Assembly (NCBI GenBank): GCA_947500295.1
Contig: CANMRM010000003.1
Location: forward strand, 372,001-436,000
Direction: 5' to 3'
Origin: an uncultured Kordiimonas sp.
GTDB taxonomy: Bacteria; Pseudomonadota; Alphaproteobacteria; Sphingomonadales; Kordiimonadaceae
Length of the DNA stretch: 64,000 bases
Position 1 is the first letter of the stretch. Each line of letters begins with the position of its first letter. Shown one piece after another: positions 8,660-45,241 of the stretch. Below the pieces are notes generated by a model, which was not told where the DNA came from, made no database searches, and saw only the letters and a program-made list of their open reading frames with translations. Position numbers and translations under genes: made by a program.

Positions 8660-9115
8660 ATGAGCAGAAAAACCACAATTTTGGCATGTGCAAGCTTGTT
8701 TCTGGCTGGGTGCCAGGGGTTTGCAAACGGGTCGGAACCCGCCGCGGATACTGTCTCGGCCTATGATGGTACGGGCGCAGAACCGCCACAGGAATTGTTG
8801 CTGGAGCTCGGGGATGCGATCGGTGACATTCGGTTCCCGAATGGCACAAGTTTTGACGAGAAAGACTCCATTATTCTCGGCGCTGGCGAGAGCACGTTCG
8901 GTAAAATACTGGGTTCTGTGAGAACCGACAGCGAACTGGTTGTCAAATTCTTCAAGGATAATATGCCGGGAGAAGGCTGGGGGCTGATCAGCGAATTTCA
9001 GGCGGACGATACAACCCTTGTCTATGACAAGCCAAGCCGTGTCGCAGTTATCATTATTGAGCGCAGCAACCGTTCCACACAGGTTCGAGTGACCGTCACG
9101 CCGCGCAACATGTAG
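8660..9115 (+). CDS. Small lipoprotein of unknown function
   Basis: A 151-residue predicted lipoprotein. The N-terminus is basic then hydrophobic and ends in a lipobox LAGC with the acylated Cys at residue 18, so it should be anchored in the inner or outer membrane. The mature part has a compact alpha/beta look with KFFKDNMPGEGW, a pattern seen in small envelope proteins that share a fold, and a final strand VAVIIIERSNRSTQVRVTVTP. I do not recognise the family. ATG 8660 has GGGGAG upstream. It is followed after 15 bp by the methyltransferase-like gene and probably shares its transcript. Confidence 0.75.
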   Translation: MSRKTTILACASLFLAGCQGFANGSEPAADTVSAYDGTGAEPPQELLLELGDAIGDIRFPNGTSFDEKDSIILGAGESTFGKILGSVRTDSELVVKFFKDNMPGEGWGLISEFQADDTTLVYDKPSRVAVIIIERSNRSTQVRVTVTPRNM

Positions 9116-9130
9116 CGCGAGTTTGATGTG

Positions 9131-9730
9131 ATGCCGGATAGCCTGCTCGACACCCTGTCGAGGTTTGCTCCGGCCGTCATCGTTGCAGGTGCCGCAATCT
9201 GGGTGCTGCTGCGCGCCTGGTTTCTGAAAAAACAGGCAGGTGTTTCGGTTGTTGCCCTTAAGGGCGGTCGGAAAACCGCTGTTGAAATCTGGCTGGCGTT
9301 CACCGGCATACTACTCGATATCTATCTGCTCTTGCGCGCCTTCTGGTCGCCGATCGACAGCTGGCTCCCCAACTGGTTCCAGGCACCGTTGCCGGGCGTT
9401 TTTATCATGTTGGCGGGTGTGCTTGTCATGATGGTTTCCCAGCTGCAGATGGGAAATTCGTGGAGGATTGGCATGCCGGGAAAAAGCGCAAGCAAGCACC
9501 AGCTTGTGACCAGTGGGCTGTATCGCTTCAGCCGCAACCCAATCTACCTCGGTGTCTTCCTGTTCCTTGCCGGAACGGTCCTCAACACCACAAATGCGCT
9601 TACCCTGGCCAGCCTGCTCGCCTGTGCGGTATTAATTCCCGTCCAGGTGGCGGGAGAGGAAGTGTTTTTAGAGAATGAGCTTGGACCCGAGTTTGAAGCC
9701 TATCGTGCCCGCGTTCGGCGCTGGCTCTGA
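9131..9730 (+). CDS. Isoprenylcysteine carboxyl methyltransferase-like (ICMT/PEMT) membrane protein
   Basis: A 199-residue integral membrane protein with about four to five helices. The C-terminal half has the ICMT/PEMT signature: SWRIGM, then LVTSGLYRFSRNPIYLG, then EEVFLENELGPEFEAYRARVRRW, which binds S-adenosylmethionine at the membrane surface. Bacterial members methylate lipids or small molecules that are mostly unknown; prenylated proteins are not expected. Starts GTG 9128 and ATG 9131 are adjacent; I use the ATG. Convergent with the MATE gene. Confidence 0.82.
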   Translation: MPDSLLDTLSRFAPAVIVAGAAIWVLLRAWFLKKQAGVSVVALKGGRKTAVEIWLAFTGILLDIYLLLRAFWSPIDSWLPNWFQAPLPGVFIMLAGVLVMMVSQLQMGNSWRIGMPGKSASKHQLVTSGLYRFSRNPIYLGVFLFLAGTVLNTTNALTLASLLACAVLIPVQVAGEEVFLENELGPEFEAYRARVRRWL

Positions 9731-9742
9731 CAATGACGGCCC

Positions 9743-11269
9743 TCAGCTCGGGTCGGCAGGCTTTGCGGGCGCAGACCCCGGCTGCGCATGAAACGCGCGC
9801 GCCGATGAATAAGGCAAAATCGGTGTCTTGGGGGCAGCATCGTCGTCGGCGTGCTCACTGGCCGTTTCATCAGCTTTGGCATCAGCAGCGCGTGTGACGG
9901 CGCTGATGGTCATGAAACACACGTAAACCGCTGCGATGCCGACAACCATGGAACCAATTGCCTGCGCCACGAGCGCACCCTCAGGTCCATAATATTGCGC
10001 ACCAAAATAGGCAAACGGCACTGTGCCCGCGGTTGCTTTGGCGACGTTGAAGAATGTTGCCCGCATCGGGTGCCCAAGGTTGTTGAAGGCGGCGTTTGCA
10101 ACAAAAAGCGCACCAAGAAAAGCAGTCAACGGCACAACCCACAAGCAAAAGGCGCGGATCATGTCTGCAGATGGCCCCGTGGCGCTGAATGCGTCGATGA
10201 TTGTTTCCTGACACAGCAGGAAAACAGCCCACAAAACGGCCGTATATCCAGCAATGAAACGAAGCGAGCTCGCCACGGTTTCCCTTACCCGGTCATAAAG
10301 GTGTGCCCCCAAATTCTGGCCAATAACCGGCCCAATAGACCCGGACATGGAAAAGAAAAGAGCAAAAGCAACAGGCGTAATGCGCGCAACAATGGTGTTG
10401 CCGGCAACAACACTGTCGCCAAATTCAGCGATCACAGCCACCACATACGCATTGCCTACAGGCGTTGCCACATTTGTGATGGTGGCTGGGCCAGCGATTT
10501 TCATCATGGGGCGCAGCGTGGCCATGAATTCGCTGACCGACCAGCGTCCCCGCAGTTTGTGGATATGGAAAATGGCGTAAAACCCGCTGGCCATCATGGC
10601 AACGCGCGCAATCGCAGACGCGTAGGCCGCGCCAACAAGGCCAAGGTCCAGGCCAAAAATCAGGATCGGGTCAAGAATGCCATTCACGATCGCTGCGGTT
10701 ACCATCACCATCATGGCGCGGCGCGCATCTCCAAGCGCACGCAATACACCACCAGCTCCCATGCCCATGGCCATCAGGGGCAGGGTGGGTAACAAAATAT
10801 GCATGTAAACGAGTGCAAGTTCGTGGGTACGCCCCTTGGCACCGATCATGGTCAACACGTCAGGCAGCCACGGCCACATACACAGCACCACCAATGTTGC
10901 AATCCCGAAGGAAAAGGCCAGCGTGTTGGTGACAATGGAGCTGGTCTGCGTGCGATTTCTCGCGCCAACGGCTCTTGCTGTCATGGCGCCTGTCGCGATC
11001 GACAAGCCAATACAGATTGATGCCGAAAAGAAAATGATTGTTCCGGCAAATCCAATCGCTGCCGCCAGCTCTGCCTCGCCCAGCAAGCTGAGGAAATACA
11101 TGTCCAGCAAATCAACCGCAAACACCGACAACAGGCCAACGGCTCCCGTCAGGGTCATGGTGATCACATGCTTGAAAACCGAGCCCTCGGTAAAGGGCGC
11201 ATCGATCTGGTTGCTGTCGTCGTCCTGCCCGGTGCTATCCCCGGCAGTTTTTTTGGCGTCGTTGGCCAT
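9743..11269 (-). CDS. MATE family efflux transporter
   Basis: A 508-residue inner-membrane antiporter with about 12 hydrophobic segments in two similar halves; it exports drugs or metabolites using an ion gradient. Family features include GSVFKHVITMTLTGAVGLLSVFAVDLLD near the start and PVIGQNLGAHLYDRVRE in the second half. About 45 low-complexity residues rich in Ala, Asp and Pro trail the last helix and are unusual. I chose ATG 11269, with GGAG nine bases upstream, over the longer frame from 11314, which adds a basic tail. Substrate unknown. A 26-bp palindrome at 11410 lies upstream and could be its operator. Confidence 0.9.
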   Translation of the reverse strand: MANDAKKTAGDSTGQDDDSNQIDAPFTEGSVFKHVITMTLTGAVGLLSVFAVDLLDMYFLSLLGEAELAAAIGFAGTIIFFSASICIGLSIATGAMTARAVGARNRTQTSSIVTNTLAFSFGIATLVVLCMWPWLPDVLTMIGAKGRTHELALVYMHILLPTLPLMAMGMGAGGVLRALGDARRAMMVMVTAAIVNGILDPILIFGLDLGLVGAAYASAIARVAMMASGFYAIFHIHKLRGRWSVSEFMATLRPMMKIAGPATITNVATPVGNAYVVAVIAEFGDSVVAGNTIVARITPVAFALFFSMSGSIGPVIGQNLGAHLYDRVRETVASSLRFIAGYTAVLWAVFLLCQETIIDAFSATGPSADMIRAFCLWVVPLTAFLGALFVANAAFNNLGHPMRATFFNVAKATAGTVPFAYFGAQYYGPEGALVAQAIGSMVVGIAAVYVCFMTISAVTRAADAKADETASEHADDDAAPKTPILPYSSARAFHAQPGSAPAKPADPS

Positions 11270-38676: not shown

Positions 38677-39150
38677 CTAGGCTGCGAAGGATTCCTGAAC
38701 CAGAAAACGATAAAGCTTGCCAAAAGCGGCACCCCATCCGTCGATAATGAACGGGCTGAACTCGTGAGGGATACCACTGTGGGTCAGCCGGACCTCTGTC
38801 TTGTTTTCCCCGTGCTCGATGAATTCGACACGCACCAGCATGTTGTCGCCTTCGCCTTCAGCCATCTCGTCTGAACGAGGGGCGGCATAAGCCAACACGC
38901 AAGGCGGGTCAAACTCGACAAACACCGCTTGCCCCGGCTGTACATGACCACCCCGAAGGGTCATCTCATGACAGTATTTTCCGCCGAGCTTTGGCTCCAC
39001 CTCGGCCTTCACTTCCATCGTGTCCGCGCAGCCCCACCATTGCTCGAGCTTGCTTGTGGCAATCCAGGCGTCAAACACCGCTTCGCGCGGTGCGTCATAG
39101 ACACGGGTCACGATCAGTTTGCCGTCTTCATACTGTGTTTGTGTCGTCAT
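38677..39150 (-). CDS. SRPBCC/AHSA1-domain protein
   Basis: A 157-residue protein of the activator-of-Hsp90-ATPase-1 type START-like fold: VTRVYDAPREAVFDAWIATSKLEQWWG at the N-terminus, EVKAEVEPKLGGKY, and the C-terminal helix GWGAAFGKLYRFL. These bind hydrophobic ligands; they are often encoded with an ArsR-type repressor, as here. It overlaps the ArsR gene by 23 bases. Confidence 0.88.
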   Translation of the reverse strand: MTTQTQYEDGKLIVTRVYDAPREAVFDAWIATSKLEQWWGCADTMEVKAEVEPKLGGKYCHEMTLRGGHVQPGQAVFVEFDPPCVLAYAAPRSDEMAEGEGDNMLVRVEFIEHGENKTEVRLTHSGIPHEFSPFIIDGWGAAFGKLYRFLVQESFAA

Positions 39151-39478
39151 CCCCTGTCCCCTTCTGTTGGTTCAAATAGACTTCCACCGCGTCAAATTGT
39201 TGTTTCCAGATGCGTGCATAGTGGGCAATCCAGCCACCGGCCTGTTCAGCGGGCCCCGGAACTGCGCGGATAAAATGCTCGCGGCCCCTGCGTGTTTTTT
39301 CAATCAGGCCTGCACGCTCAAGTACTCTCAGGTGCTTTGAAATGGCAGGCTGAGACATGTTGTGCGGCTTTGCGAGATCGGTGACATTTGCCTCCCCGTC
39401 AGCGAGCTGGGCTAACATGCCGCGGCGAGTGCTGTCGGAAAGTGCGCTGAATATCTTATCCAGATTAGACTCATTCAT
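39128..39478 (-). CDS. ArsR-family transcription regulator
   Basis: A 116-residue winged-helix repressor with FSALSDSTRRGMLAQLADGEANVTDLAKPHNMSQPAISKHLRVLERAGLIEKTRRGREH. No CxC metal site is visible, so it likely senses something other than arsenic. ATG 39478 (MNESNLDK) is preferred over the frame from 39544. The start codon is inside an 18-bp palindrome (39476-39493) that is probably its own operator. First gene of the ArsR-AHSA1 operon. Confidence 0.9.
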   Translation of the reverse strand: MNESNLDKIFSALSDSTRRGMLAQLADGEANVTDLAKPHNMSQPAISKHLRVLERAGLIEKTRRGREHFIRAVPGPAEQAGGWIAHYARIWKQQFDAVEVYLNQQKGTGDDDTNTV

Positions 39479-39493
39479 AACCAAAAGGTTATG
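39476..39493. promoter_or_regulatory. Candidate ArsR operator overlapping the arsR start codon
   Basis: CATAACC-AAAA-GGTTATG, a perfect dyad, spans the ATG of the ArsR gene. Binding there would block transcription initiation or early elongation of the ArsR-AHSA1 operon. ATAACC/GGTTAT half-sites are consistent with ArsR-type dyads; a direct promoter was not assigned. Confidence 0.6.
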
Positions 39494-39657
39494 TATTTTT
39501 TCAATCCTGTCAATAGCCAAATAAAAATAAGGTTTACTTGCCATTTATCTGTGAAATTACTGCAATTTTAACAATGACTTAAGGTTCTCTGATCTAGAAA
39601 TGATACATGTTGCAAATGCGGTTGATGAAATGCGCTATGACCCGTGGAGAGACCAAA

Positions 39658-40155
39658 ATGAAACTGCCCGTGAAACTAATTTTGCCAGCGCTGGTGCTCG
39701 GTGCGTCTTTTGTCCTAAAGGCGGAAGAACACATCGTTGAGGTTATTACCGACAATGAACAGGGCATCACGTCTTTCAAGCCCAAGTTTTTGAGGGTTGC
39801 GCAGGGTGATACGGTAACCTGGGTCAATATTACGGACGACCTGCACAATGTCATCACCTACCCGGATGGTTTCCCGTCCGGAAGTACCGGGTTTGAGAGC
39901 CCCTATTTTGAAAAAGCAGGTGACAGCTGGTCTTATACCTTTGAGCAGAAAGGTACCTACCAGTATCATTGCATCCCTCACATTCTGATGGGCATGCGGG
40001 GCGTGGTCACGGTGGCGACGCCAACACCGCCAAACAGGTTTCACAAGCCAAGCAAAGATGAAATCGTTGCCTACAGGGGCAAGCTTCTGGAGTTTTTCGA
40101 CTCTGAAGAGTTCAGCATTATGCCGGACGCAGTGCGTCGCAACGTAAAGGACTAA
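39658..40155 (+). CDS. Periplasmic cupredoxin (pseudoazurin/plastocyanin-like)
   Basis: A 165-residue exported blue-copper protein. Signal peptide about 1-21. Copper ligands: His63 (DDLHNV), Cys105 and His108 in YHCIPHILMGM, with Met111 or Met113; the C-x2-H-x2-M spacing is as in amicyanin and pseudoazurin. A C-terminal helical tail (about 130-165) is extra. It would carry electrons in the periplasm. ATG 39658 follows GGAGAG; the frame from 39607 adds a non-signal leader. It is convergent with the second cupredoxin and the dihaem protein. Confidence 0.85.
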   Translation: MKLPVKLILPALVLGASFVLKAEEHIVEVITDNEQGITSFKPKFLRVAQGDTVTWVNITDDLHNVITYPDGFPSGSTGFESPYFEKAGDSWSYTFEQKGTYQYHCIPHILMGMRGVVTVATPTPPNRFHKPSKDEIVAYRGKLLEFFDSEEFSIMPDAVRRNVKD

Positions 40156-40186
40156 AAAAAGGGCGCGGCCACTTCCTGCCGCACCC
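40154..40186 (-). terminator. Rho-independent terminator
   Basis: On the minus strand GGGTGCGGC pairs with GCCGCGCCC (one mismatch) around AGGAAGTG, followed by seven T. It ends the dihaem protein-cupredoxin transcript coming from the right. Confidence 0.75.
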
Positions 40187-40215
40187 TTCATCGAATTTCA
40201 GTTACATGGTGGCCG

Positions 40216-40545
40216 CTACTCGACTTTGATGACCATTTTCATTTTTGGATGAATGGCACAGCGAACCCGATAGGTGCCAGCAGAATCAAACGCGATAGAG
40301 CCTTCCTCGCTGGGTTTTTGCAAGCCCAGATCCTGTTTCTTGCCTTTGACGATTGTATAGACATTGTGAGCAACACTGTCGTCATTGACAAAAACCACGG
40401 ACTGACCGGATGTCAGAGAGAGCTGCTTCTCTGAGAACTGTTTACCCTTCTGGCTGATACGCACCGCGTCCTGCGCCAGTACAGGGCTTGCAAAAGCTGT
40501 CATCAAACCCAGTCCGAGGGCAGCGTGTAAATATTTTGAACTCAT
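40216..40545 (-). CDS. Periplasmic cupredoxin (amicyanin-like)
   Basis: A 109-residue exported blue-copper protein. Signal peptide about 1-24 (SPVLAQ). Ligands: His60 (VAHNV), Cys96 and His99 in RCAIHPKMKM, Met102 or Met104; spacing matches the amicyanin/pseudoazurin C-x2-H-x2-M form. It lies 23 bp downstream of the MauG/CCP-like gene and shares its terminator, so it is a natural electron partner of that dihaem protein. Confidence 0.88.
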   Translation of the reverse strand: MSSKYLHAALGLGLMTAFASPVLAQDAVRISQKGKQFSEKQLSLTSGQSVVFVNDDSVAHNVYTIVKGKKQDLGLQKPSEEGSIAFDSAGTYRVRCAIHPKMKMVIKVE

Positions 40546-40568
40546 TGTCTCTAGTCCTCTCTGGATTA

Positions 40569-41582
40569 TCAGTTGGGAAGCTTGGGGAGTGAAACCGCGG
40601 GGTCGTCGCTGCTGAGCGATTGCAGGAACGCAACAAGATCGCTTTTCTCCGAAGCGGTCAGTCCAAGTTCCTGCATCTCACTAGACAGTGAGGGGCGTTT
40701 AACAAACCCGCTGTCATAGTGATCTACCACTTCTTCCAGCGTCTTGAGGCTACCATCATGCATGTACGGTGCTCGTTCAACGATATTGCGGAGGCCCGGT
40801 GTTTTGAACGCATGTTTCAGCGCATCAAACTCAAGCACCTCATAGCGACCCTCGTCAGCGTCCCCCAGTCCTATGTCATGGAAACCCCAGTCAGTGAAAT
40901 TCCAGCCTTCGTGGCAGCTGGCGCAGCGGGCCTTGGTATTGAAGACCTCAAACCCACGTTTTGCGGCCTCGCTGATGGCATTATCATCCCCTTTAACCCA
41001 GCGGTCGAAGGGAGCTTCGGCTGAAACCAGCGTGCGTTCGTAGGTTGCGATGGCTTTTCCGATGTTGTCTGCGGTAACGCCTTCACCAGGGAAAACGTTC
41101 TCAAAAAACTGGACGTAACCAGGCACATTGCGCAGTTCGACCAACAGCTCGTCAAGATCCTGCGCCATTTCTCCGCCTGCCTGAATAGGGCCAAGCGCTT
41201 GCTCTTCCAGTGATTCTGCCCGGCCATCCCAAAAATATAGTTCACCCCATGCCAGATTGAGCACCGTGGGCGTGTGCCGGCCAAGGCGGGACATCGGTGT
41301 GCCAACGCTTGTTGGCTGCGCATCTTCCCAGGCAAAACTCGGGTTGTGGCAGGATGCACATGTCAGGTTGTTTTCCCGGGAAAGCCGTGGGTCAAAAAAC
41401 AGCATCTTGCCAAGTTCTGCCTTGGCTTCGCTATATGAATTTTCTTCCGGAAACGGAATATCTGTCGGCCTTTCATAATCCGCCCGTGTCAGGCTATCCT
41501 GTGCCGTGGCCAGTCCCGTGGTCGTACCCGCGACCATCGCCGCGATAACTAGTGTTTTTGCGTGAGACACAATTATTTTCAT
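40569..41582 (-). CDS. Dihaem cytochrome c peroxidase / MauG-family protein
   Basis: About 337 residues, exported. Two CxxCH haem sites: CASCHN and CASCHE (about residues 75 and 220 from ATG 41582). GKMLFFDPRLS, GRHTPTVLN and YMHDGSLKTLEEVV are CCP/MauG signatures; the YMHDG methionine is a possible axial ligand. The family reduces peroxide or performs MauG-like oxidations. I chose ATG 41582, six bases after GAGG, over ATG 41594. It heads an operon with the amicyanin-like cupredoxin. No methylamine dehydrogenase genes are in the window, so a peroxidase role is likelier. Confidence 0.9.
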   Translation of the reverse strand: MKIIVSHAKTLVIAAMVAGTTTGLATAQDSLTRADYERPTDIPFPEENSYSEAKAELGKMLFFDPRLSRENNLTCASCHNPSFAWEDAQPTSVGTPMSRLGRHTPTVLNLAWGELYFWDGRAESLEEQALGPIQAGGEMAQDLDELLVELRNVPGYVQFFENVFPGEGVTADNIGKAIATYERTLVSAEAPFDRWVKGDDNAISEAAKRGFEVFNTKARCASCHEGWNFTDWGFHDIGLGDADEGRYEVLEFDALKHAFKTPGLRNIVERAPYMHDGSLKTLEEVVDHYDSGFVKRPSLSSEMQELGLTASEKSDLVAFLQSLSSDDPAVSLPKLPN

Positions 41583-41623
41583 CACGAACCTCATTTGTTC
41601 AGCGACCCCCTGGGCGTTGAATT

Positions 41624-43843
41624 CTAACTTCTCATTTCCGAAACAAACTGCTTCACCTGGCCATCAAGGCCGACGGCGAGTTCCAACAACTCAGAAGCGG
41701 CTTCTTCAACTGAAGACATGGTGTTTGCATTGGCGCGGGCGGCCAGACCCACAGCATCAATGCTGTCTGCTACACGATTGGTCATTTCTGCCGCGACGGA
41801 TGCCGCATCGCCAATTTCCGACGTTTTGCTGGCCTGTTGTTCGACGGCTGCGGAAATATCGGCAGCGATTTCATCGATCATGGCAATCTTGCTGGTCACG
41901 CCGCGTACAGAATCGGTTGCGGTGCTGGTGGCTGAAAGCATTTCGCTGATTTGTTTCTCAATTTCATGTGTTGCGTTGGCGGTTTGATTGGCGAGGCTTT
42001 TCACCTCAGAGGCAACGACAGCGAAGCCTTTGCCAGCTTCTCCTGCACGAGCGGCTTCAATCGTGGCGTTGAGGGCAAGCAGGTTTGTTTGTTCGGCGAT
42101 CTCATTGATCAGCTTCACAACATCTCCGACATTTTGAGCGACACCATCCAGCAGATCCACTTGCGAAACTGCCTCAGATGCCGCGCTGTTCGCTGCCTGT
42201 GTGTTTTCAGTGGCTTCCCGGACACGACCATTGATGGCTTCAATGGACTGGTTCATTTCGGTTGCGCTCAACGCCACAGAGCTGACGCGTGTGCCTGCTT
42301 CCTGGCTGTCCTGGTAGCTGTCGGCTGAGCGCTGGGCAGTGTCGCGTGCCGATTGGTCAACCATGTTGGCCGACTGTTTAAGCAGCTCCGCCTTGGACGT
42401 GACATCGGCAACGATCGAGGCAACCTGCTTTTCGAACTGATCTGCAAGTTGCTGCCGCTGATGGGCCTGCTCGTCAGCTGCACGTTGCTCGCTTTCAGCA
42501 AGTTGCCGTTTTTGCTCCGCCTCACGGGCCATATCCCGTTCTCTTGCCTCTTTTTCTGCATTCAAACGGGCTTGTTCAGCTTTGTTGGCCTCAAGTCTCA
42601 ATTGCTCTGCTTCACGCACACTGTCTCGGAATTTGGTGATAGAGCCTGCCAATTCTCCGAGTTCATCGGCTCTCTCATTGTACGGGATGGCGGCATCGAG
42701 GTCTCCGCCTGCCATGGCACCCGCAACGTCTGCAATGTGGGAAATCGGCGCAACCATCCGCGCTCCCACAACATAGCCAATGCCGCCCAATACAACGATC
42801 ACGCCGAGCGAGGCCAGAAGCATGACCCAGATTTTTTGCTCTATTGGCTCGTTAAGTTCCGATTCGCTGATTTCAGCAACCAGCGCCCACCGCGTTCCCC
42901 GAAAATCGATTGGCTGGAAGGAAGCAATAACTGGCGCGCCGTCATAGTTTGACGCTACCTCGACGCCGGTTTTGCCGTTCAGACCGGCTAGTGCACTGGT
43001 GCTGTCCACCGTTTGGACAAGTATGGACGATTGCTCGCGGAAACGGCTGTCACTACGCATTAGCTTGTCGGCGCCGACAAGATAAGTTTCGCCCGTTTCA
43101 CCAAGACCTGTTCTTTGTATCATGGTCTTGTTCAACAAATTTACCGGCATCTGGAACGCGAGCACGCCAATTTTGGTGCCTTCTGCGTCAAATACAGCGC
43201 GCGCGATGAAGCTTGCCGGGGCGTCGTCACTTGGGCCATAGGGAGCGAAATCGCTAAAAGCTACATGATTTGATTCGGTGGCATTGAGAGCGGAGCGATA
43301 CGCCTCTCCCAGGCCCGTATCTCGCCATTCACCGGAGATGAAGTTTGTTGCGAAATCCCGTTCTTTATAAACGCTGTAAACAAGATTTCCTTCCAGATCG
43401 AGAAGGAATACATCGTATAGGCCGCTTGCTTCAGCCAATGACCGAAACCATGGATGAAACACCATGTGAACGGAACTGTAATAGCTGTCATCGCCAGCAG
43501 CATCCAGCTTGTGGCGATCGCCGGCACCGTGCGGGTTGTCAACAATATAAAGTTGTTGCAGCTGACCGGTTTGGTCACTGTCCATGTCCAGCCATGCGTC
43601 TCCCAGATCCGTGAGCGCACCTGCGGTGGTCGGGTTTGACGCCGTCAGGAACAGGCTGTTTTCAATGCCCGTGAAATAACTCTGCACTTCAATCGCTTTA
43701 GCGGACCGACTGAGGTTCAGTTTGTTTTTTGCTTCTTCCTGCAACTCAGCCCGCATCTGACTGGCTGAAATTACGACTAAAGCAAGAGTGGAGGCCAAAA
43801 GAAGCCCCACCGTAAAAACCGGTATCTTAATCCTTAAACGCAC
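41624..43843 (-). CDS. Methyl-accepting chemotaxis protein with Cache-type sensor
   Basis: A 739-residue chemoreceptor. One N-terminal helix (about 7-28), a large periplasmic Cache-type domain (about 40-320), a second helix ([23 protein letters not shown]), HAMP, then a long coiled coil rich in Glu, Ala, Arg and Gln ([22 protein letters not shown]) and the signalling domain with [38 protein letters not shown]. It ends without a CheR-tether pentapeptide. No che genes are nearby. Ligand unknown. Confidence 0.93.
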
Positions 43844-44151: not shown

Positions 44152-44865
44152 CTAGATGGCGCGCTGATGCTCCAGGCCACCAGCCGGTGCAAGGATTTGA
44201 TTGAGTGCGCCGTATTTGATGACAGCCTGAGTACGGTTGGAAACATCCAGCACTTTGAAGATAGCGTGCATGTGGGCCTTTACCGTGCCTTCGGCGATGC
44301 CCAGCCTGGCGGCGATTTCCTTGTTCGGAAGGCCGTCGGCAGCCATGGCGAGGATTTGTTTTTGACGGAAAGACAGGCGGCCCAGGTCGACATAAGTATC
44401 TTCATTGCGGTGGCTTGGGCGCAAGCGGTCATGCATGAAGGCCCGAACGTCCGGTCGCGCCGGTACGTAACCGCCGCTTCCTGCGTGATCTGTCGGCAGG
44501 TTCATGGCGCGCCTGATTTTGCTCACCAGTTCAGTGACGCTGGCGCCGCGCTTGACGATGGTTGCGCCCTGCCAGATTGGTGACACTGTTGAGGTGTCGC
44601 TGACAATGACGATTGCGGCCTGGGGATACAGCCGACGGACGAGCTTCAGGCAGTTGCGGCCATCATGGCCATCGACACTTTTTTCAGCGGTCAAGCCACC
44701 TGGATGAACAACCACCAGATCCAATCTGTCGTGCTTGGCTGTGACCTCGATAAATTCGCTTTCACTGCCTGCGTTAATGACTTCGGAGAAGTTTGCCGAC
44801 ACTGACACAACTTCGTGCATCGACATCCGAAACAATTCTTCACCGTCAATTATCAGAGCTTTCAT
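44152..44865 (-). CDS. LuxR-type regulator with a pseudo-receiver domain
   Basis: A 237-residue NarL/FixJ-type protein. The receiver-like domain (1-115) keeps the acidic Asp7 and Lys105 but the phosphoacceptor position reads His54 in LVVVHPGG, so phosphorylation is not expected. The C-terminal HTH (about 165-220) is intact: LSFRQKQILAMAADGLPNKEIAARLGIAEGTVKAHM. ATG 44865 has GAGGAAGAT just upstream; the frame from 44940 adds an unrelated basic leader. It could work by dimerisation or ligand binding. Targets unknown. Confidence 0.87.
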   Translation of the reverse strand: MKALIIDGEELFRMSMHEVVSVSANFSEVINAGSESEFIEVTAKHDRLDLVVVHPGGLTAEKSVDGHDGRNCLKLVRRLYPQAAIVIVSDTSTVSPIWQGATIVKRGASVTELVSKIRRAMNLPTDHAGSGGYVPARPDVRAFMHDRLRPSHRNEDTYVDLGRLSFRQKQILAMAADGLPNKEIAARLGIAEGTVKAHMHAIFKVLDVSNRTQAVIKYGALNQILAPAGGLEHQRAI

Positions 44866-45241
44866 AATCTTCCTCGCTAACCGCCCCGGCGTTTTTTTGT
44901 GGCTCATTGACCTTTGTACAGGGCTAAACTTTTCATACATTTAGTGTAGCAAGAGTAAGCCGAAGGTCATTCTCTGCCGGGTGAGCTTGAGACGAATCGT
45001 TTGAACGATGCGACGAACAGCGGTTGTGGACGCTTCGAAACGTTAATCCGAAACAAGACGGGTTACAGAGCGCGCCGCGGATTTGAACAGGTCAGCCAAG
45101 TCGAATCATCACTCGTTTCGCCAATTGGCAGGCGCTGCTCGGCAAAAGGTTTGACTTCTGCACTGTGAGCGTCCATGGAAAAACCTGACAAGGGCGCCCA
45201 CTCCCGTATCCATAAAAAGGGCTGTGGCGCAGGGAAGAGAG
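44866..45241. other. Divergent intergenic region before the AST operon
   Basis: About 376 bases between the LuxR-type gene and the M20 gene. It has one clear dyad, ATCGTT-TG-AACGAT (44996-45009), and no credible gene. Both promoters should be here. Confidence 0.4.

Follow-up and report, generated by a model that had tools for sequence, protein, structure and literature searches.

A dihaem CCP_MauG-type protein and cupredoxins encoded with a chemoreceptor in an uncultured Kordiimonas: a candidate redox-protein-coupled receptor system

We analysed a 64,000 nucleotide stretch of DNA (hereafter the window; contig CANMRM010000003.1, C3:372001-436000) from an uncultured Kordiimonas sp., whose genome (G000) amounts to 4.27 Mb on 13 contigs. 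The minus strand of the window carries an operon in the order MCP, DiHeme, CupB, coding for a chemoreceptor, a dihaem c-type protein and a cupredoxin, with gaps of 29 bp between the first two genes and 23 bp between the last two; a second cupredoxin gene, CupA, is convergent to it. Here we show that dihaem proteins of this kind are recurrently encoded next to receptors, that one periplasmic receptor domain is found in these receptors with exchanged outputs, and that DiHeme, by alignment, belongs to the class with a tyrosine ligand at the second haem. On balance we lean towards the view that MCP, DiHeme and CupB, with the convergent CupA, make up a periplasmic redox-protein-coupled chemoreceptor system, in which DiHeme and/or CupB would deliver redox or peroxide inputs.

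The first-pass annotation of this region, which was made from the sequence without database searches, described two cupredoxins beside a dihaem protein of the CCP/MauG type. Profile searches bear out this gene content. CupA and CupB both match Copper-bind (PF00127; 5.2e-19 and 1.7e-8, respectively), and DiHeme, which contains two CxxCH sites (C79-C82-H83 and C224-C227-H228), matches CCP_MauG (PF03150; 2.8e-57, 194 bits against a cut-off of 25.6) and hence is a member of that superfamily. The annotation also placed one cupredoxin gene in an operon with the dihaem gene, which holds for the same-strand CupB, but it cut the operon short by missing MCP, and the end it assigned to the region (41582) is an internal Met of DiHeme.

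Linkage of dihaem genes to receptor genes

The comparison is based on a genome scan with seven orthologues of DiHeme (alignment A1), from which the best 80 of 539 related stretches were taken, picked by similarity and not by their neighbours. Together with relatives, class samples and controls, these rows gave 127 sources that were scanned in six frames with local hidden Markov models (HMMs). Some of these loci had also served to train the HMMs, among them 24 of the 42 with hits for the shared domain described below; the HMMs supersede earlier rough regex tags. The 127 dihaem proteins were aligned, and a quick IQ-TREE phylogeny of 125 of them was made, which carries SH-aLRT values only and came with long-branch warnings; the duplicates L067 (of L039) and L143 (of L064) are excluded from the tree and from the counts.

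The clearest pattern was obtained for a clade of 36 rows (SH-aLRT 99), in which each of the 36 dihaem genes is followed by a receptor gene with one and the same periplasmic domain (of these domains, 24 had been used to train the domain HMM, which then detected the other 12). The median distance between the two genes is 11.5 bp for the 32 of the 36 pairs that could be measured by the open reading frame (ORF) caller, and the outliers of 379 and 423 bp are probably due to wrong-frame ORF calls at L084 and L077. While the periplasmic domain remains constant, the cytoplasmic outputs change: 25 of the receptors are of the MCP type, eight are histidine kinases (HKs), two have GGDEF-EAL outputs and one is truncated where its contig ends. 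Placed on the tree, the HK label requires three changes and the GGDEF label one. The best explanation for a periplasmic domain that stays constant in the company of DiHeme, with changing outputs, is a coupling on the periplasmic side in which DiHeme (and CupB) would be the input.

DiHeme of the window belongs to the sister clade (n=17; support 95). Its 17 loci contain six MCPs without and four with the shared domain, one HK, two cut receptors and one divergent MCP, and three have no receptor. Two mostly gammaproteobacterial groups of five and ten rows have eight same-strand MCPs, six divergent MCPs and one locus without receptor, and their receptors are of another type. A fixed rule was applied by which a receptor is counted when, on the same strand, the shared domain is located within 1.2 kb or an output domain within 2.7 kb. 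By this rule a receptor is present in 47 of the 53 loci of the two sister clades, as opposed to 3 of the 57 others (p 1.2e-20 by Fisher test, a value that is too small because near strains among the rows overstate their independence). The three exceptions among the others are L041 (HK 2.6 kb off), L048 and L147. Assignment by hand gave 49/53 versus 1/57 (Fisher); here, L052 and L053 were labelled as cut receptors, since their contigs end inside a receptor-like ORF, and L147 as having none despite a same-strand GGDEF domain 1470 bp upstream. The fixed rule does not count the HKs encoded on the opposite strand at L041, L042 and L045 (at 2.1 kb or less), nor the GGDEF receptors with the shared domain that lie at a distance of 2.2-2.3 kb at L110 and L144. 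Among 20 paralogous control loci (L152-L171) no receptor was detected by the rule (0/20), with an MCP 3.45 kb off at L169 and a locus, L171, that ends 38 bp downstream.

Pfam confirmed an MCP, HK or GGDEF-EAL output in all ten of ten sampled partners, eight of which are from the 36-row clade, but found no family above cut-off in their periplasmic part (4HB_MCP_1 scored below cut-off in L039). Alignment of 32 of the 42 domain hits (A2) gave a mean column identity of 34%, with Trp120 conserved in 31 of the 32, Pro137 in 29, Leu128 in 26 and both Met70 and Thr71 in 23. The domain is predicted to be a four-helix bundle (pLDDT 87.9) whose long first and last helices include the membrane helices, and the conserved M70-T71, L128-G129 and I136-P137-T138 would, by the secondary structure of the model, be positioned at helix ends far from the membrane helices. 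Foldseek returned weak matches to 4HB receptor domains, including that of Tar, and to QseE-QseG (9m08, E 0.059), none of them at E 0.001 or better. At 1e-12 the shared domain is found in at least 12 of 289 genomes of the class. Among these 12 loci, the domain occurs with DiHeme in three (L172, L173, L181) and after a CupB-like gene in four (L174, L175, L179, L180); L176 has a divergent CupB-like gene and a dihaem gene about 2.3 kb off (L144), and in the DNA seen at L177, L178, L182 and L183 neither kind of gene is present.

Haem ligand, pocket and family of DiHeme

The axial ligand of the second haem had been named in the first-pass annotation as the residue by which a MauG-like protein (Tyr) and a peroxidase (Met) could be told apart. 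In DiHeme this position is Tyr293, which is of the MauG type by alignment; the AlphaFold2 model (pLDDT 93.0) is without haem. Tyr293 corresponds to position 294 of MauG variant 3rn0 in a gapless fragment of 62 residues (chain positions 259-303). The MauG alignments viewed were those of the variants 3rn0, 3rn1 and 4y5r, and for 3l4m the matched range only. We take Tyr294 of MauG to be the axial haem ligand, as a title in the reference list of PMC6405878 also has it. The Tyr293 column holds Tyr in 36/36 and 17/17 rows of the two sister clades, in 15/15 of the gammaproteobacterial groups and in 42/57 other rows; Met is found in 9 of these 57, including all seven canonical relatives (L040-L046). 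A canonical bacterial cytochrome c peroxidase has Met as sixth ligand of its electron-transfer haem, and DiHeme departs from this. As read from the alignment, the haem-ligand class of DiHeme is that of MauG, MbnH and BthA and not that of the Met-ligated peroxidases.

Tyrosine was rejected as a mark of receptor linkage, as the 42 Tyr rows among the other proteins show. Receptor linkage is followed better by the shared receptor domain and by Trp231, located three residues past the His of the second haem, which is present in 53/53 proteins of the receptor-linked sister clades, in 5/57 of the rest and in 0/15 of the gammaproteobacterial groups, although 14 of these 15 lie close to an MCP gene. Loss of the loop His, replaced by Thr99 in the window, was likewise rejected as a defining trait, since His is retained in 7 of the 17 clade members; the conclusion that its loss would abolish reductive activation fails for the clade as well.

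Several family assignments were evaluated. DiHeme scored 348.5 bits against TIGR03791, the TTQ_mauG equivalog model (cut-off 443.85), so that it does not qualify as a MauG orthologue, and over the 289 class genomes this model gave 12 matches at 1e-60 of which none was above cut-off. With 214.3 bits against TIGR04039 (cut-off 362.85) it also falls outside the MbnH family. DiHeme therefore appears to be a superfamily protein with a Tyr ligand and not necessarily a MauG. In the structural comparison by VIA-align the model was closest to MacA (Z 37.6; peroxidases in the mixed-valence or reduced state were best), followed by 6e1c (34.3) and MauG (about 31).

This proximity to bacterial cytochrome c peroxidases in fold and sequence, together with retention of Gln132, Glu142 and the conserved Trp122, is what would be expected if the proteins did no more than reduce peroxide in the periplasm, in a chain fed with electrons by the cupredoxins, as first put forward in the first-pass annotation. 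The pocket residues Gln132 (53/53) and Glu142 (51/53) are indeed kept in the two sister clades, which makes peroxide chemistry plausible. A plain chain has to account, however, for the Tyr that takes the place of Met at the second haem and for the fact that none of the 36 loci of the sister clade has a cupredoxin gene within 700 bp, and it leaves the receptor linkage unexplained; we consider it improbable.

The other proposal of the first-pass annotation was a MauG-like maturase acting on an unlinked protein substrate. At the level of the haem ligand DiHeme is MauG-like, with Tyr at the site as in MauG, 6e1c and BthA (for BthA, from a fold match and from Tyr463 ligation given in PMC6405878). 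The genome does not, however, offer the substrate genes that would go with a MauG orthologue. In agreement with the annotation, which had noted the absence of methylamine dehydrogenase genes, the small subunit model PF02975 found no match in the genome of the window, all 15 candidates having been scored, while it works as a positive control in 10 of the 289 class genomes (9 over cut-off); the large subunit model PF06433 also gave no match there, in a search without positive control. Methylamine dehydrogenase maturation was rejected on the basis of the small subunit result. No CCP_MauG gene was found in five loci with a PF02975 match (L231-L235), and the comparison is consequently based on the MauG of the Protein Data Bank (PDB). 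In addition, the conserved neighbours are receptors and cupredoxins and not an enzyme in need of a cofactor, and a maturase seems to us very improbable. Neither proposal explains the recurrent linkage to receptors that share a periplasmic domain and exchange their outputs.

Other dihaem proteins were seen in the course of this analysis. The genome of the window codes for a second one (L047 5942-6877; C3:81995-82870), which is Tyr-type and has no receptor match within 4.5 kb. A second dihaem gene in G027 (L048 5955-6845) overlaps or abuts an HK gene; in its product the ligand residue is Met, and Gln132 and Glu142 are replaced by Ser and Thr, as if it were a catalytically dead sensor. In the proteins of L110, L144 and L147, Val takes the position of Gln132 and Asn or Leu that of Glu142, with a cupredoxin gene on the opposite strand at 1.8 kb or less, and the Campylobacterota relatives L096 and L097 have Cys in the Tyr293 column.

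Cupredoxins, chemoreceptor and near relatives of the window

The C-x2-H-x2-M string that the first-pass annotation attributed to both cupredoxins is present in both and fits CupB, whose predicted copper ligands His60, Cys96, His99 and Met102 are invariant in an 18-row alignment (A4). The spacing C-x2-H-x2-M is that of amicyanin, and C-x2-H-x4-M that of pseudoazurin. For CupA, alignment of CIPHILMGM to CTPHYGMGM of pseudoazurin favours the second Met as ligand, i.e. C-x2-H-x4-M. Both Mets are invariant in eight homologues (A5), and conservation alone therefore leaves the choice between them undecided. Neither protein reaches the cut-off of the pseudoazurin model TIGR02375 (109.85; CupA 61.4 and CupB 23.6 bits) or of the amicyanin model TIGR02657 (110.2; CupB 31.1 and CupA 43.7 bits), and CupA is also under the cut-off of TIGR02656, with 62.0 bits. 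Sec-like N-termini, read by eye, suggest that CupA, CupB and DiHeme are periplasmic.

At 1e-8, CupB relatives are found in at least 47 of the 289 class genomes. In the best 30 class loci, one of which is the window, a receptor domain is encoded downstream on the same strand in 16 and upstream in three (L194, L208, L221). DiHeme is present in two of those 16 (L195 and L196) and absent from the 1.5 kb seen in the other 14. A YD-x-PL-type motif, which in 19 aligned receptors sits just past the first membrane helix, occurs in 13 CupB-relative loci. The CupB cupredoxin family is thus often receptor-associated independently of DiHeme. Within the clade of the window, 15 of the 17 loci have a cupredoxin gene within 700 bp, 10 of them two; its complete absence at that distance from the 36-row clade indicates that cupredoxins are not obligatory.

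The MCP of the window has the domains of a methyl-accepting chemotaxis protein, all above cut-off: a dCache_1 sensor domain (PF02743; 5.5e-16, 59.3 bits), HAMP (PF00672; 4.1e-10, 40.3 bits) and MCPsignal (PF00015; 1.5e-31, 110 bits). With 12 MCPsignal matches over the 4.27 Mb of the genome, chance adjacency to a given gene should be rare. The shared periplasmic domain (A2) had no match at 1e-12 in this genome, with 10 of 23 candidates scored. Probably the receptor of the window is a derived variant in which the original receptor was replaced.

Coordinates of the genes are given in Table 1.

Table 1. Genes of the operon and its surroundings, in positions of the window.
Gene	Positions	Strand	Description
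CupA	39658-40155	+	pseudoazurin/plastocyanin-like type-1 copper protein with C-terminal tail; convergent to the operon
CupB	40216-40545	-	amicyanin-like cupredoxin; last gene of the operon
DiHeme	40569-41594	-	CCP_MauG dihaem c-type protein; Tyr293 predicted as sixth ligand of the second haem
MCP	41624-43843	-	transmembrane chemoreceptor, dCache_1-HAMP-MCPsignal; first gene of the operon
LuxR/NarL-type regulator	44152-44940	-	PF00196, 3.4e-17; upstream of MCP; may be a regulator, not proven to belong to the system

A dihaem match at 1e-20 was obtained in 27 of 79 genomes searched. Among the 18 other genomes of the genus, three have close DiHeme orthologues (76-81%), and all three have MCP, DiHeme, CupB and CupA together (L034-L036); at L036 the block stands among other genes, the other window genes looked for not being found there. 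CupA was detected in 4 of 31 relatives searched, namely the 4 of 19 genus genomes that have close DiHeme orthologues; this search included four genus genomes less than 90% complete and left out the family members G019-G028. Same-strand CupA homologues adjoin DiHeme at L037, L053, L054 and L142, and at L037 (G024) the genes follow the order CupA-DiHeme-CupB-MCP on one strand. L034 has a homologue of the LuxR/NarL-type regulator and L035 one that is truncated by the end of its contig, whereas none was found at L036.

Some further features of these loci were recorded. Adjoining CupA, the genes for an AHSA1-domain protein and an ArsR-type regulator have an overlap of 23 bp (window 38677-39544), and both are present in L034 and L035. 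In the draft contig of G014 the MCP frame is split into three ORFs (L035 5337-7555), by assembly error or decay. At L054 (Geminicoccaceae) an HK gene (9105-10757) is located beside DiHeme and two cupredoxin genes; a CxxCH before its second membrane helix, by eye in the presumed periplasmic part, suggests that this kinase may bind haem c itself. At the locus of an MCP relative, L226, an ORF with one CxxCH lies about 2 kb off. In three loci (L227 7028-7747, L228 6690-7409 and L224 3275-3949) a gene for a protein of 224-239 residues follows a dCache MCP relative; the proteins have a signal-like N-terminus and, by eye, a common YRFRGLSL stretch.

A candidate sensory system and its relation to known proteins

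Several results weigh against a redox-protein-coupled receptor system. The MCP of the window is a dCache receptor without the shared domain, and in 5/5 genomes the 11 kb viewed at the loci of its relatives (38-51% identity) contain neither a dihaem nor a cupredoxin gene. As a consequence, it is the linkage that argues for coupling in the genus of the window, where the case is less strong than for the family at large. Three of the 17 loci in its clade have no receptor (L051, L063, and L065, which ends 838 bp downstream), the shared domain is not exclusive to DiHeme, and the 36-row clade does without cupredoxins. A phmmer search of PDB sequences with DiHeme ranked peroxidases first, with 208 bits, against 75.7 bits for P. 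denitrificans MauG (3l4m). The background of linkage is not nil either, since 31 of 399 other genes in the loci have an adjacent same-strand receptor, in part the same receptors, and the independence of the rows is overstated, as mentioned.

Linkage can, moreover, reflect co-regulation only. DiHeme and the cupredoxins would then remove periplasmic peroxide while MCP independently senses an attractant or repellent of the same conditions. The dCache domain of the window, of a ligand-binding type by itself, would suit such an arrangement, as would the occurrence of MCP relatives without DiHeme nearby and the conservation of the catalytic Gln132 and Glu142. What it leaves unexplained is one periplasmic domain that accompanies DiHeme across MCP, HK and GGDEF-EAL outputs, and we regard it as unlikely, though less so than the chain or the maturase.

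In the redox-protein-coupled system that we favour, DiHeme, plus CupB where present, would be exported to the periplasm, where peroxide or the local electron-transfer state would set the oxidation state of the dihaem centre and the cupredoxins would trade electrons with it. The redox protein, in its oxidised or reduced form, would then dock on the periplasmic domain of the neighbouring receptor and alter its output, docking and signal direction being parts of the scheme that we infer. Because the distal-pocket residues are kept, peroxide or redox state would be the likeliest stimulus; copper is a less likely but possible one. For the 36-row clade a more specific mechanism can be envisaged, in which the DiHeme-type enzyme oxidises the near-invariant Trp120 of the receptor by long-range electron transfer, as MauG does on the precursor of methylamine dehydrogenase (preMADH), with Trp231 as relay and a covalent or radical mark as readout. 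We hold this to be doubtful, and know of no precedent for sensing by a covalent or radical redox mark that a partner enzyme sets on a receptor. A search of the openly accessible papers in PubMed Central, which does not prove their absence elsewhere, listed none on a MauG/peroxidase-receptor pair, and the accessible part of PMC13401364 makes no mention of MauG, diheme, peroxidase or cupredoxin.

If the redox-protein-coupled system is real, a large set of orphan MauG-like dihaem proteins would gain a function as sensor inputs. The receptor domain without annotation, whose outputs are chemotaxis, phosphorylation or c-di-GMP, would gain an input that can be put to the test. Periplasmic sensing of peroxide or redox state through a partner enzyme would then be testable in cultured Pseudovibrio, Rhizobium, Methylobacterium and Leisingera.

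With MauG of Paracoccus denitrificans (3l4m and its variants) DiHeme shares the dihaem CCP_MauG fold and Tyr as sixth ligand of the second haem; it differs by its low score to 3l4m and to TIGR03791, by the lack of a small subunit match in its genome and by a conserved partner that is a receptor. The bacterial dihaem cytochrome c peroxidases MacA and CcpA are nearest to it in sequence and fold, but their Met ligand is replaced by Tyr and the loop His of 4aal by Thr99. The superfamily dihaem proteins 6e1c and BthA have the same fold and Tyr at the site, and we know of no receptor partner for either. The PDB title of 6e1c describes a MauG-like protein associated with microbial copper homeostasis, which we take to be MbnH; unlike it, DiHeme stays under the cut-off of the MbnH model. 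On the receptor side, sugar-loaded MBP docks on Tar, and TorT-TorS is likewise a pair of partner protein and receptor. Although the partner proposed here is a redox enzyme or cupredoxin and the fold matches are weak, MBP-Tar, TorT-TorS and QseG-QseE (9m08) resemble the proposed system in pairing a periplasmic protein with a receptor domain that is a helical bundle.

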